A DNA stretch of 62,902 bases from a candidate division WOR-3 bacterium (GTDB taxonomy: Bacteria; Hydrothermota; Tepidihabitantia; SM23-42; JAOAFX01). Below are positions 35,336 to 62,902 of this stretch, piece by piece (position 1 is the first letter of the stretch; each line of letters starts with the position of its first letter). The position numbers were made by a program, and so were the translations under genes. The notes below the pieces were generated by a model, which saw only the letters and a list, made by a program, of their open reading frames with translations, was not told the DNA's origin and ran no database searches. The stretch spans positions 1-62,902 of the forward strand of contig JBDRWD010000010.1 in the NCBI GenBank assembly GCA_039802205.1. Direction: 5' to 3'.

Positions 35336-35344
35336 GATTGGTAA

Positions 35345-35372
35345 AATATAATCAAAATTTGAAGAATGTCAA
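35345..35372 (-). promoter_or_regulatory. Promoter of regulator B, nearly leaderless
   Basis: Minus strand: TTGACA (35367-35372), 16 bases, TATATT (35345-35350), nine bases, ATG. A start site 6-7 bases after the -10 box would put the ATG at or within a few bases of the 5' end. Confidence 0.78.
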
Positions 35373-35481
35373 GTGGGGGAAAAATAAGCCTTATAAAATC
35401 CGCAATTTACTATATTCTACTAATCTTTATATTAAAGAGAAAGACACAGTCGGCGGTAAAATAGGGTCAAAAGGGGGTCCT

Positions 35482-37854
35482 ATGAAAAATAAATATTGTT
35501 TGTTACTCGTCATATTAGCATTTAAAATAGGAACAACTCAATCGGTGAGTCTGCCCTGGATTTGGTTAAACCCGTTGCCATCGGATAACGGCTTTAGCGA
35601 TTGCTATGCGATTGATAGCAACACTCTCTTTATTGTTGATTATGAGCAGGCTTTGGTATATAAGACCACCGACGGTGGGTTAACTTGGACCACAAAGTGG
35701 GTGCCGTATCCGGATAGTGTTTCTAACTACTATCGTTTTTTAGGCATTGATTTTCCTACGCCGAATGTCGGTTACATAGGTGGAGTAAGTAATAGTACTG
35801 CAATTATTCTTAAAACAACTGACCAGGGAGAAAATTGGAATTATGTTCTTTTAGGTGTCTCAGGAGGGCTTTATGATATTGACTTTCCACAGGGTAATCC
35901 AGATGTGGGTTATGCGGTTGGTACACAATCCATTATTTTAAAGACAACAAATGGGGGTGCAAACTGGGTGACACAAACAAATCCTGGGGCAACAAACCAG
36001 GTCTTAAGGGCCGTCCATTTTCCAATAAATGCCGATACTGGATATGCAGTTGGAGGGTGGAATACCTATGATACATTATATCCATTGCTACTTAAAACGA
36101 CTGATGGCGGTCAAAACTGGATAGAACAGACAAGTCCTGTTCCTGGTGGCTATCATAGTTTATATTTTTGCAACAATAATATTGGATATGCCTGCGGAAG
36201 TATTGAAGGATACGGTGGCACAAATCCAAAGGCAGTAATAATCAAAACAACAAATGGTGGTAATAACTGGCAATTAATCTACAATAAACCTAATGAATAT
36301 GTGAAAGGAATTTATTTTCTAACAATCTCGTTAGGATTTGCCTTTATAGTAAAGGCAAGTGGTGGCACATATTCGTCTCTAATCCGAAAAACTACAAACG
36401 GAGGTAATACCTGGGATTCTATTATTCCACCTCAAAGATGTGCTGTGCATTATAAATTCTCATTTAGTTTCGCCAATCAGCAGATTGGATATGGTGTGGG
36501 TTCTGATTATGATATTAATTTTAGTCCTGGGAGGATTTTCAAAACGACAAATTGCGGAGCATCGTGGTTTTCTCTTAAAAAAGGACCTGATGTTACACTT
36601 TGGGCGGTAGATTTTCCTGAAAATGACCAGATTGGATATGCGGTCGGTGACTCTGGATATATTCTTAAAACATCGGATGGCGGATTAAATTGGGTTCGGC
36701 AATTCACCGGAACTGCCCAAAGATTCAGGGATGTTCATTTCGTTAATAATCTGACAGGGTTTGCTGTAGGTGAAAACGGGGTTTTATTTAAGACTACTAA
36801 TGGAGGGAATACTTGGATTCCTAAGAATTCCACTACCACGATGCGGTTGAATGCAGTAAAATTTGTGAATGAACAGATTGGATATATCGCAGGCGGCGGG
36901 ATTTGGCCCTTTTATGATTCAGGAGCGGTAATATTAAAGACAACGAACGGCGGCGATACTTGGGCAAACCAAAACATACAGTATAACACGCCAATCCAGG
37001 ATTTGTTTTTCTTTAACGGAGATACCGGTTATGCGGTTGCCGGTCCTTCGCCAGAAGGTGCGCCAACTGCTGCAATTATATATAAAACCACAAATGGAGG
37101 ACAAAACTGGGTTGTGAATTATGTGCCACCGCAACAACAGGGGAAGGTTTTCTATGCGATAGACTTTCCTGTGAATAGTCAAGTCGGTTTCGTAGGTGGA
37201 GTTATAGAAAACCAGCAGGTCTATAAGGTGAAGATTTTAAAGACCACTAACAGCGGAAGTTCCTGGCAACAGATTATTATGGAGGTTTCTGGTGATAATT
37301 CAACAAGTGCGATAGGAACTTTGTCATTCCGAGATAATTTCATTGGCTATGCAGCACCCGTAAGGAGTGAATATAATAATATTTATAAAACGAACGACGG
37401 TGGGTTAACCTGGAGAAGACATATTGTACCAACACGCCATGTAATTTACGACATATGCGCTATCAAAAATACTGACATAGTTTATGCAGTTGGCCCCCGC
37501 GGCATGATTCTTAAAACGACAAACGGCGGTTCGGTCTGGATTGAAGAAAAAAATGATGATGAAAAATTGGTTGCAAGGAATGGAAATGAGATACTGAAGG
37601 TTTATCCAAATCCATTCAGGAACAATGTCCATATCAGATGCAGGATACACGATACAGGATACATGATAAAGATTTACGATATTTCGGGACGTGTTGTAAA
37701 ATCTTTCAATCTTGAATCCTGTATCCTGAATCATGAATCCAGTATCACCTGGTTTGGAGATGACAATATGGGTAACAATTTGCCCACCGGAGTCTATTTT
37801 ATCGTGCCTGAGGATAAGAGCTTTTCGCCCGTGCGGGTGGTGAAGATAAGATAA
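35482..37854 (+). CDS. Secreted YCF48/BNR-type propeller with sorting domain
   Basis: 790 residues with a signal peptide (MKNKYCLLLVILAFKIGTTQ). About a dozen blades follow of the form GYAVG-x-x-G-x-ILKTT-x-GG-x-NW, as in the photosystem II assembly factor YCF48/HCF136 and sialidase BNR repeats. The C-terminus is a type A sorting domain: VYPNPFRNNV, IKIYDISGRVVKSF, LPTGVYFIVPEDK, VVKIR. ATG 35482 has AAAGGGGG just upstream; the frame is open back to 35338 but that part lacks signal-peptide character. The sorting domain holds an inverted heptamer-repeat insertion (37637-37748). Divergent from regulator B. Confidence 0.82.
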   Translation: MKNKYCLLLVILAFKIGTTQSVSLPWIWLNPLPSDNGFSDCYAIDSNTLFIVDYEQALVYKTTDGGLTWTTKWVPYPDSVSNYYRFLGIDFPTPNVGYIGGVSNSTAIILKTTDQGENWNYVLLGVSGGLYDIDFPQGNPDVGYAVGTQSIILKTTNGGANWVTQTNPGATNQVLRAVHFPINADTGYAVGGWNTYDTLYPLLLKTTDGGQNWIEQTSPVPGGYHSLYFCNNNIGYACGSIEGYGGTNPKAVIIKTTNGGNNWQLIYNKPNEYVKGIYFLTISLGFAFIVKASGGTYSSLIRKTTNGGNTWDSIIPPQRCAVHYKFSFSFANQQIGYGVGSDYDINFSPGRIFKTTNCGASWFSLKKGPDVTLWAVDFPENDQIGYAVGDSGYILKTSDGGLNWVRQFTGTAQRFRDVHFVNNLTGFAVGENGVLFKTTNGGNTWIPKNSTTTMRLNAVKFVNEQIGYIAGGGIWPFYDSGAVILKTTNGGDTWANQNIQYNTPIQDLFFFNGDTGYAVAGPSPEGAPTAAIIYKTTNGGQNWVVNYVPPQQQGKVFYAIDFPVNSQVGFVGGVIENQQVYKVKILKTTNSGSSWQQIIMEVSGDNSTSAIGTLSFRDNFIGYAAPVRSEYNNIYKTNDGGLTWRRHIVPTRHVIYDICAIKNTDIVYAVGPRGMILKTTNGGSVWIEEKNDDEKLVARNGNEILKVYPNPFRNNVHIRCRIHDTGYMIKIYDISGRVVKSFNLESCILNHESSITWFGDDNMGNNLPTGVYFIVPEDKSFSPVRVVKIR
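37637..37748. repeat. Inverted pair of heptamer arrays inside the sorting domain
   Basis: 37637-37667 is, on the minus strand, ATCATGT ATCCTGT ATCGTGT ATCCTGC. 37714-37748 reads on the plus strand AATCCTGT ATCCTGA ATCATGA ATCCAGT. The two arms are inverted and could pair; between them lies the conserved IYDISGR coding segment. The same heptamer family occurs in the signal-peptide region at 61572-61611. Confidence 0.7.
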
Positions 37855-61150: not shown

Positions 61151-61202
61151 GAGTAACCTGTTTTATCCTGCTTCATTTTTTCTCCTGAACCCCCTTTCGG
61201 AG

Positions 61203-61230
61203 CCCGGGGGATGAGCCCCCATCCCCCGGG
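61203..61230. repeat. GC-rich hairpin
   Basis: CCCGGGGGAT, 8-base loop, ATCCCCCGGG: ten perfect pairs. Its preceding word ACCCCCTTTC also precedes the UUCG hairpin at 37881, so the two may be copies of one element placed after secreted-protein genes. Confidence 0.65.
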
Positions 61231-61237
61231 ATGAGAT

Positions 61238-61455: not shown

Positions 61456-61516
61456 ATCTTAAACTTTTGTATCTTGACTCCAGTAGTATCAATGATATAA
61501 TTAATTGGAGGAATAA

Positions 61517-62902
61517 ATGAAAAGATTTTCAGGCAATTTCCCAATCCGCAATTCGCAATTCGCAATGTCTTTATCTTGTATCCTGCATCATGTATCCTGT
61601 ATCATGCATCCAACGTCTTGTAAATCCGCAATGCCTTTTCTTGCTACTTTCTACTTGCTACTTGCTATTTTCACATACGCCCAATCCGGCTGGGGACCGG
61701 ATACAAGGTTGGTCTTTATGCAGGGCGGCGGCTGGTATCCGAGGGCGGCATGTTGTGGAGACACAATTCACCTTGTTTGGTGGCAGCATTACGCACACGA
61801 CGAAGTCTTCTACAAGCGGAGCACGGATGCTGGTCTAACCTGGGGTGAGGATGTGATGTTGAGTGTGGAGGATGACCGATCGTCAGTTCTTCCCTGGATT
61901 GCTGTAGACGGTAATTACTTACACGTAGTGTGGCAACAGTATGGTATAGGGATTTGTTATCGAAAAAGTACGGATGGTGGGAATTCCTGGCTTATGATAG
62001 ATACTATTCCTAACGGTGGCTCAGGTAATCCGTCAATATGTGCCGTTGGAAGCAATGTATATGTTGTTGCATATCGCTCTGATGGGAAAGTAATATTTAC
62101 AAAAAGTACTGATAATGGTACAACTTGGTTGCCTTCACAGAATATTGGCTTTAACTGTGCGACACGACCTCGTATAAAATATCTGGGAAATCAGTCAATA
62201 CTTGTATTATCCTGCGAAAATACAACCACTACAGTAGAGATTTATTATAAAGAAAGTGCTGATGAGGGGCAGACATGGAGTGATAGTATATGTGTTTCAG
62301 AATATGGCTTCAACCATTCATTTAGTCAAACAATGACTACTGATGATTATGGTGGTGTTCATATTGATTGGTGCGATTACAAATATTCGCCCTATTCCTG
62401 GACTGGTGATATTTTTTATCGGACGAGCAGGGATAGTGGTAATACCTGGGAAGAGATTGATTCGCTCACGGTGATGCACAGAGCGGTTGCATCAGATATT
62501 CTTGCTGAAGGTAATAATCTCCATCTTGTCTGGGAGGATGACAGGAATGGATTTGATAATAATTTTGAGATTTATTATCGGATGAGCACGGATTTGGGCA
62601 GGACCTGGGGTCCTGAGGAAAGGCTTACCAATGCCCCATATCATTCCTATTGTCCTTCTTTAGCCTGTGGGGGTGGGTATTTGCATCTATTCTGGCAGGA
62701 CAGGAGGGAGTATGGGAATAATGGTCCAAGTGCGCCGATTTACTACAAACGAAAAGACCTTAGCGTAGGCATTAAGGAAAATGTTCTCTCAAGTTGCTCA
62801 TCTTCAAGTTTATTCTTGAATTGCCCGGCGATATTGGCTGAGAAGACCTTGATTTGTTATGATTTAGGCAAAAACAAAAATGGTGAAATAAATTTAATAG
62901 AT
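61517..62902 (+). CDS. Secreted BNR/sialidase-like repeat protein, 3' end cut by window
   Basis: Open from ATG 61517 (GGAGG upstream) to the window edge: 462 codons without a stop. The N-terminal ~55 residues end in a hydrophobic stretch (FLATFYLLLAIFTYAQ), a signal peptide with an unusually long and odd front part built from heptanucleotide repeats. The rest has repeated WYPRAACCGDTIHLVWWQ, YYRMSTDLGRTWGPEERL and similar units, the BNR pattern of sialidase-type propellers. Catalytic sialidase residues cannot be confirmed. The final residues (CYDLGKNKNGEIN) suggest that a sorting domain is starting. Probably exported like its neighbours. Confidence 0.8.
   Translation, partial: MKRFSGNFPIRNSQFAMSLSCILHHVSCIMHPTSCKSAMPFLATFYLLLAIFTYAQSGWGPDTRLVFMQGGGWYPRAACCGDTIHLVWWQHYAHDEVFYKRSTDAGLTWGEDVMLSVEDDRSSVLPWIAVDGNYLHVVWQQYGIGICYRKSTDGGNSWLMIDTIPNGGSGNPSICAVGSNVYVVAYRSDGKVIFTKSTDNGTTWLPSQNIGFNCATRPRIKYLGNQSILVLSCENTTTTVEIYYKESADEGQTWSDSICVSEYGFNHSFSQTMTTDDYGGVHIDWCDYKYSPYSWTGDIFYRTSRDSGNTWEEIDSLTVMHRAVASDILAEGNNLHLVWEDDRNGFDNNFEIYYRMSTDLGRTWGPEERLTNAPYHSYCPSLACGGGYLHLFWQDRREYGNNGPSAPIYYKRKDLSVGIKENVLSSCSSSSLFLNCPAILAEKTLICYDLGKNKNGEINLID
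61543..61670 (+). repeat. Three heptanucleotide arrays in the signal-peptide coding region
   Basis: 61543-61569: AATCCGC AATTCGC AATTCGC AATGTC. 61572-61611: TATCTTG TATCCTG CATCATG TATCCTG TATCATG CATCC. 61641-61670: TTGCTAC TTTCTAC TTGCTAC TTGCTAT. All have period 7, not a multiple of three, yet the frame stays open through them. The second series is the same family as the repeats at 37637-37748. Confidence 0.85.

Follow-up and report, generated by a model that had tools for sequence, protein, structure and literature searches.

The window, the whole 62,902-nt stretch of DNA analysed here, is contig C10 of a 2.65-Mb draft genome that is 96% complete, and it ends inside a gene that opens with three arrays of heptanucleotide repeats (Table 1). 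The mature part of the protein encoded from 61517 matches the Asp-box beta-propeller domain BNR_2. Orthologues in relatives share 52–66% identity with this protein, and two of them (L038 and L041) join BNR_2 to the C-terminal sorting domain PF18962/TIGR04183; our gene runs off the contig with that domain still incomplete. Since the orthologues carry both domains, the 61517 product is probably an exported protein too, with T9SS sorting predicted from them. No direct orthologue was found within the genus (genomes G001 and G002; best E 4.9e-17). The GGAGG motif supports ATG 61517 as the start, rather than the in-frame ATG 61631, and TTGAC/TATAAT-like elements also stand upstream of the orthologues, as judged by eye. 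Farther upstream, the intergenic DNA holds a G/C-rich near-palindrome, GGAGCCCGGGGGATGAGCCCCCATCCCCCGGGATG, at 61197–61231.

Table 1. Features of the 61517 gene and of the sorting-domain arrays elsewhere in the window (window coordinates).
Feature	Position	Strand	Remarks
Sigma-70-like promoter, TTGACT-16-TATAAT (11/12 match)	61474–61501	+	Directly 5' of the 61517 gene
Shine-Dalgarno motif GGAGG	61507–61511	+	5 nt 5' of ATG 61517; read from the sequence
Asp-box (BNR_2) beta-propeller gene, product probably exported, 462+ codons	61517–62902	+	3' end beyond the contig end
Predicted signal peptide MKRF...FTYA, 55 aa	61517–61681	+	Cleavage between A and Q, before 61682, from orthologue alignment
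Array A, AATYCGC	61543–61566	+	n-region; cyclic peptide NSQFAIR, hydrophilic, +1 charge; period-7 region 61533–61566, 4.7 copies, 81% matches
Array B, YATCMTG	61572–61611	+	n-region extension; cyclic peptide YPVSCIL; period-7 region of the same extent, 5.7 copies, 75% matches
Array C, CTTGCTA	61640–61667	+	Signal-peptide hydrophobic core; cyclic peptide LATCYLL, hydrophobic, mean KD 1.96; period-7 region of the same extent, 4.0 copies, 90% matches
Heptamer array, TATCCTG family in antisense	37637–37668	+	Loop site 1 of the C-terminal sorting domain, exported repeat protein ORF 35338–37854
Heptamer array, AATCCTG	37708–37740	+	Loop site 2 (VVKSF[NLESCILNHESS]ITW) of the sorting domain, ORF 35338–37854

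Heptamer arrays make up much of the predicted signal peptide. The leader has the features of a Sec signal peptide, namely a basic n-region (MKR...), a hydrophobic core and a small residue before the TYA-Q cleavage, whose neighbourhood, ..[A/S]-Q..W, is common to nearly all orthologues. It is 55 aa long against 23–37 aa in 10 orthologues and paralogues, and the excess corresponds to arrays A and B. No part of the leader ahead of the cleavage site is strongly hydrophobic except array C (residues 40–52, mean KD 2.16), so this array must be the h-region if the protein is exported. The preliminary description had reported arrays of AATTCGC, TATCCTG and TTGCTAC in the first ~52 codons, the last encoding the hydrophobic core; we found all three in place, within the first 51 codons, with array C as the core. 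A further lone AATCCGC unit stands at 61623–61629. The arrays are degenerate, and their longest perfect period-7 runs measure 20 bp (61547–61566) and 17 bp (61651–61667). Nevertheless, the period-7 score of the signal peptide, 15, was reached in 2 of 1000 synonymous-codon shuffles (p=0.002) and in none of 1000 peptide permutations, and other lags score at most 5.

Across the gene family, heptamer-built signal peptides precede a conserved cleavage site and a conserved mature protein. Five of the 11 family signal peptides are built from heptamers, with units that differ (codon-shuffle p ≤0.002), and the remaining six lack period-7 structure (p ≥0.33). Significant period 7 appears in the orthologues of G015 (CTGCCTA), G013 (CTTACTT), G003 (CTTCTTA) and G027 (CTACTGC); where the h-regions of orthologues are rebuilt, other hydrophobic heptamers are used and hydrophilic ones are not. 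On the mature-protein tree, five changes are needed to explain which signal peptides carry arrays, and well-supported branches force at least four of these, so heptamer signal peptides have been gained or lost repeatedly in this family.

Other exported genes of the genome, to which the preliminary description had pointed for comparison, carry arrays at their 5' ends as well. One is the exported beta-propeller gene L240 on contig C38 of G000, whose signal peptide (MRRV...FRNPKSEI...LLPTSSFLFA, cleaved before Q) is heptamer-built and whose orthologue contains SBBP repeats. Another, at L071:6061–7599 after tRNA-Lys, has AATTCCC-type units in its n-region and TTTGGCT-type units in its h-region; it has no Pfam match, and we take it to be DsbD-like. 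Of 99 signal-peptide-like genes in a sampled quarter of the genome, 1 passed a strict threshold (10) at the 5' end, giving no sign that arrays are enriched in signal peptides genome-wide, and two further heptamer-built signal peptides came from other searches. Heptamer-built signal peptides are a minority feature in the sampled genome.

Period 7 dominates the short tandem repeats of this genome, which we surveyed by pattern searches and sampled stretches. At a score threshold of 12, 463 kb including the window yielded 13 period-7 arrays, against 0–3 for each other period from 4 to 15, and a Markov-1 simulation yielded none. A 663-kb sample held 28 arrays of period 5–12; 17 have period 7, and 13 of these 17 lie inside ORFs of at least 150 aa. 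Pattern searches placed the array A family at ~10 sites in the genome and the array B family at ~8. Within the genus, the array A pattern had 28 hits in G000, 75 in G001 and 0 in G002, a genome that is 84% complete. Arrays persist where sequence is weakly constrained: in sorting-domain loops, in signal peptides (n- and h-regions), immediately downstream of start codons and between genes, where relatives carry long heptamer arrays. Both sister species have an array at the N-terminus of a NuoD-like protein, and another array is internal to an ORF that we take to be a putative GT4 glycosyltransferase.

Most of the period-7 arrays sampled sit in two loops of the C-terminal sorting domain. Loop site 1, between NPFxxxxxIKFQI and xIYDxxGR, has lengths of 8, 11, 14, 19, 21 and 27, and loop site 2, between GRxVKSF and WxGxD, is 17 aa long in 19 of 34 domains despite differing heptamers. 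CTT-type hydrophobic arrays are in sense orientation both at loop site 2 and in signal peptides; at loop site 1 most are antisense and encode a charged peptide. Between homologues, loop site 2 (that at window 37708–37740 included) holds to the same length and heptamer phase even where the heptamer has been wholly replaced, which suggests unit turnover at fixed length. In L005, L012 and L073 this site is filled by a related period-8 repeat, AACCATTT/AACCATTC, with the peptide FNHLTIQPFNQ. Arrays A and B of the 61517 gene follow each other in the same order as at loop sites 1 and 2 and may derive from a C-terminal domain, but a search of the genome DNA returned only a 36-nt match.

Repeats of other kinds accompany the heptamers in relatives. 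In L256, L257 and L245 (G015, G026), heptamer arrays are broken by or adjoin a GC-rich palindromic repeat of ~33 nt, CCCCGGCCTCGC...GCGAAGCGGGGCGGGCT, which is translated in frame in two sorting domains. It resembles the small dispersed repeats of cyanobacteria that are nested in heptamers. A control pattern, TKVCTWC read backwards, had many matches in G009, G011, G045, G053 and G060, so other repeat families are amplified in those genomes.

The arithmetic of heptamers lets stop-free arrays fit into coding sequence. All three frames of a heptamer array read one cyclic heptapeptide, because 7 and 3 are coprime, and of the 2340 heptamer classes, 1608 contain no stop on a given strand and 1180 none on either. 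A stop-free array therefore fits an ORF in any phase, as long as the net change in length is divisible by 3. Units differ in the peptides that they yield: by hydropathy and position, those in h-regions (CTTGCTA, CTTACTT, CCTACTG, TTTGGCT) are hydrophobic, and AATYCGC in n-regions and loops is hydrophilic with a +1 charge.

Between sister species, arrays keep the frame and their units turn over. With no orthologue of the 61517 gene in the genus, length variation was assessed in other array-bearing genes of the sister species. Orthologous coding arrays there differ by only 0, 6, 39 or 42 nt, all in frame, with +42 nt between L378 and L002 and +39 nt between L367 and L012; no difference of 7 or 14 nt was seen. 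Some array changes, of 39, 6 and 15 nt, do not amount to whole heptamers. A 5128-bp sister pair of 89% identity spans three coding arrays without a gap, and the NuoD-like array and several sorting-domain arrays are of equal length in the two species. Turnover is most visible at the C38 gene. The 1.1 kb of DNA upstream is 97–100% identical in most 60-nt windows (78–85% in four), and the start of the mature protein is 97–98% identical, against 47–62%, with gaps, in the centre of the signal peptide (nt 94–214), where G001 has an in-frame duplication of a 42-nt (6-unit) module. Recombination between species could be another source of the differing centre; by either route, the signal peptide is the divergent part of this gene. 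The DsbD-like signal peptide is equally long in G001 and built there of different heptamers, and its G002 counterpart carries no array. In intergenic DNA, comparison of L377 (G001:C56) with L006 (G000:C91) revealed that one of the two species, and not the other, has a 65-bp tandem duplication comprising the array and its flank.

Arrays of the AATYCGC family reach well beyond this lineage. A scan of GTDB genomes with three AATYCGC units found at least 119 stretches, and the matches listed span Acidobacteria, Verrucomicrobia, Planctomycetes, Chloroflexi, Cyanobacteria, Gemmatimonadetes, WOR-3 and others. Among them, with orientation called from the longer covering ORF, chosen symmetrically, AATYCGC is in sense in 61 ORFs and in antisense in 13 (p=1.4e-8), both strands being stop-free. 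Of the 61 sense arrays among these listed matches, 19 fall within 30 codons of the ORF start (4.0 expected), where ORFs run from stop to stop and some start-proximal arrays may be leader upstream of the true start; only 3 fall within 100 codons of the ORF end (13.4 expected). Examples include the leaders of a T2SS pseudopilin and a prepilin and the n-region of an M23 peptidase signal peptide. The family also occurs in the leucyl-tRNA synthetase (LeuRS), MurD, UvrA and CoaBC genes of other bacteria, the MurD array seemingly just 5' of the start. One could extrapolate that stop-free heptamers are a frame-agnostic, self-renewing coding source, recruited in many phyla at gene starts for signal peptides, prepilin leaders and N-terminal extensions, with the sense and start bias reflecting some transcription- or translation-coupled process that places or retains them. 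We regard this extrapolation as rather unlikely.

For the 61517 gene itself, we favor, at a probability of about 75%, a fast-remade, frame-preserving export signal that is assembled from dispersed STRR-like heptamers on a conserved mature protein and does not act as a reversible switch. The leader would be a Sec-type signal peptide in which three dispersed degenerate heptamer arrays lengthen the n-region and encode the hydrophobic core. Such arrays would arise by tandem duplication or slippage and would spread or turn over within genomes. Those with a net length that is a multiple of three would survive in permissive places, selection keeping the frame. Hydrophobic units would serve as h-regions and AATYCGC as n-regions or loops, and in exported proteins a hydrophobic array may take over as the core of the signal peptide.

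Phase-variable export, the interpretation offered in the preliminary description, does not fit these data well. Slipped-strand mispairing would change the number of heptamers and reversibly switch the surface protein off, as for NeuO, and the frame arithmetic behind this proposal is correct: seven is not divisible by 3, and simulated gain or loss of one or two units in any array brings a stop at aa 30–112, whereas three units keep the frame. The arrays also occupy the 5' coding region of a surface-type protein, and the AAGACTC repeats of neuO provide a heptanucleotide precedent (PMC13001214). Their perfect runs are nonetheless short, the differences of one or two units that switching would leave are missing from orthologous coding arrays of the sister species (in genes other than 61517), and the repeat family extends to housekeeping genes (NuoD here; MurD, LeuRS, UvrA and CoaBC in other phyla), where an off-switch would be harmful. 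To phase variation we accord the slimmest chance of all. Very unlikely, too, is a misplaced start, with translation beginning at the in-frame ATG 61631 (MPFLATFYLLLAIFTYA, cleaved before Q) and arrays A and B forming an untranslated, possibly regulatory leader. MPFLATFYLLLAIFTYA alone does hold a hydrophobic core at a length near that of orthologous signal peptides, and intergenic TAACTGA heptamers have been proposed elsewhere as translational regulators (PMC4679880). Yet the strong GGAGG and the promoter precede ATG 61517 and no counterpart was seen before 61631, the arrays are open in the frame of the gene throughout, and initiation at 61631 would leave an n-region with no basic residue. Nor does the leader look like a structured RNA: its folding was weaker than that of shuffled sequences (z 1.29), and Rfam gave no match.

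That the arrays are neutral repeat debris, tolerated passengers in a dispensable stretch with no part in the signal peptide, is unlikely, though it has real points in its favor. Arrays occur wherever constraint is low, intergenic DNA included, and their presence is scattered on the gene tree. Passengers would not be expected to supply the one strongly hydrophobic segment before the cleavage site, however, and the hydrophobic character of orthologous h-regions is retained when their heptamers are replaced; this argument concerns array C, and arrays A and B alone may be passengers. A rapidly remade export signal that keeps its frame remains our preferred account.

Heptamer repeats as such are not new. 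Heptameric SSRs are over-represented in bacteria, polymerase slippage has been proposed for the 7-mer excess, and STRR-like repeats are mainly intergenic (PMC4692102); MacGregor (2015) discussed heptamers inside ORFs, including how protein ends tolerate them (PMC4679880). What appears unreported is their recurrent use as signal-peptide material: the literature searched, with subscription journals outside the search, contained no account of heptamer repeats forming signal peptides, and nothing was found there on repeat-encoded peptides (NPQSAIRN and similar). Simple repeats that translate alike in every frame, some of them hydrophobic enough to act as a core, offer a route to new export signals. 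This route explains how sister species can replace a signal peptide wholesale while the mature protein stays nearly identical. For annotators, 5' heptamer arrays need not mean phase variation, and the old question of why heptamers are over-represented in bacteria becomes testable in coding regions.

Known repeat systems resemble these arrays in part. Rickettsia palindromic elements are mobile, palindromic and of defined sequence, and are tolerated in frame at surface positions of protein genes. They share with our arrays the presence of in-frame repeated DNA inside genes, whereas ours are built from simple heptamers whose units change. In E. coli K1, neuO likewise carries a run of heptanucleotides close to its 5' end, where one or two units shift the frame and three keep it; its AAGACTC tract, however, has 3–53 repeats and is OFF in most genomes (65.6%), against about three perfect units, degenerate arrays and no one- or two-unit sister-species variants here (PMC13001214). 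The ATCTTTC repeats of HMW1A in Haemophilus influenzae also tie a heptamer array to a surface protein, but that array lies in the promoter, is long (~13–24 units) and acts on transcription (PMC8262952). The STRR heptamers of cyanobacteria, GGGAATC of Xanthomonas and Nostoc, and TAACTGA of Beggiatoaceae similarly form degenerate short arrays at many loci with lineage-specific amplification (PMC4692102, PMC4679880). STRR and other heptameric SSRs are mostly intergenic, and TAACTGA has stops in one orientation; the arrays described here, in contrast, lie in ORFs in 13 of 17 cases, have no stop in any frame and make up signal peptides and loops of sorting domains.
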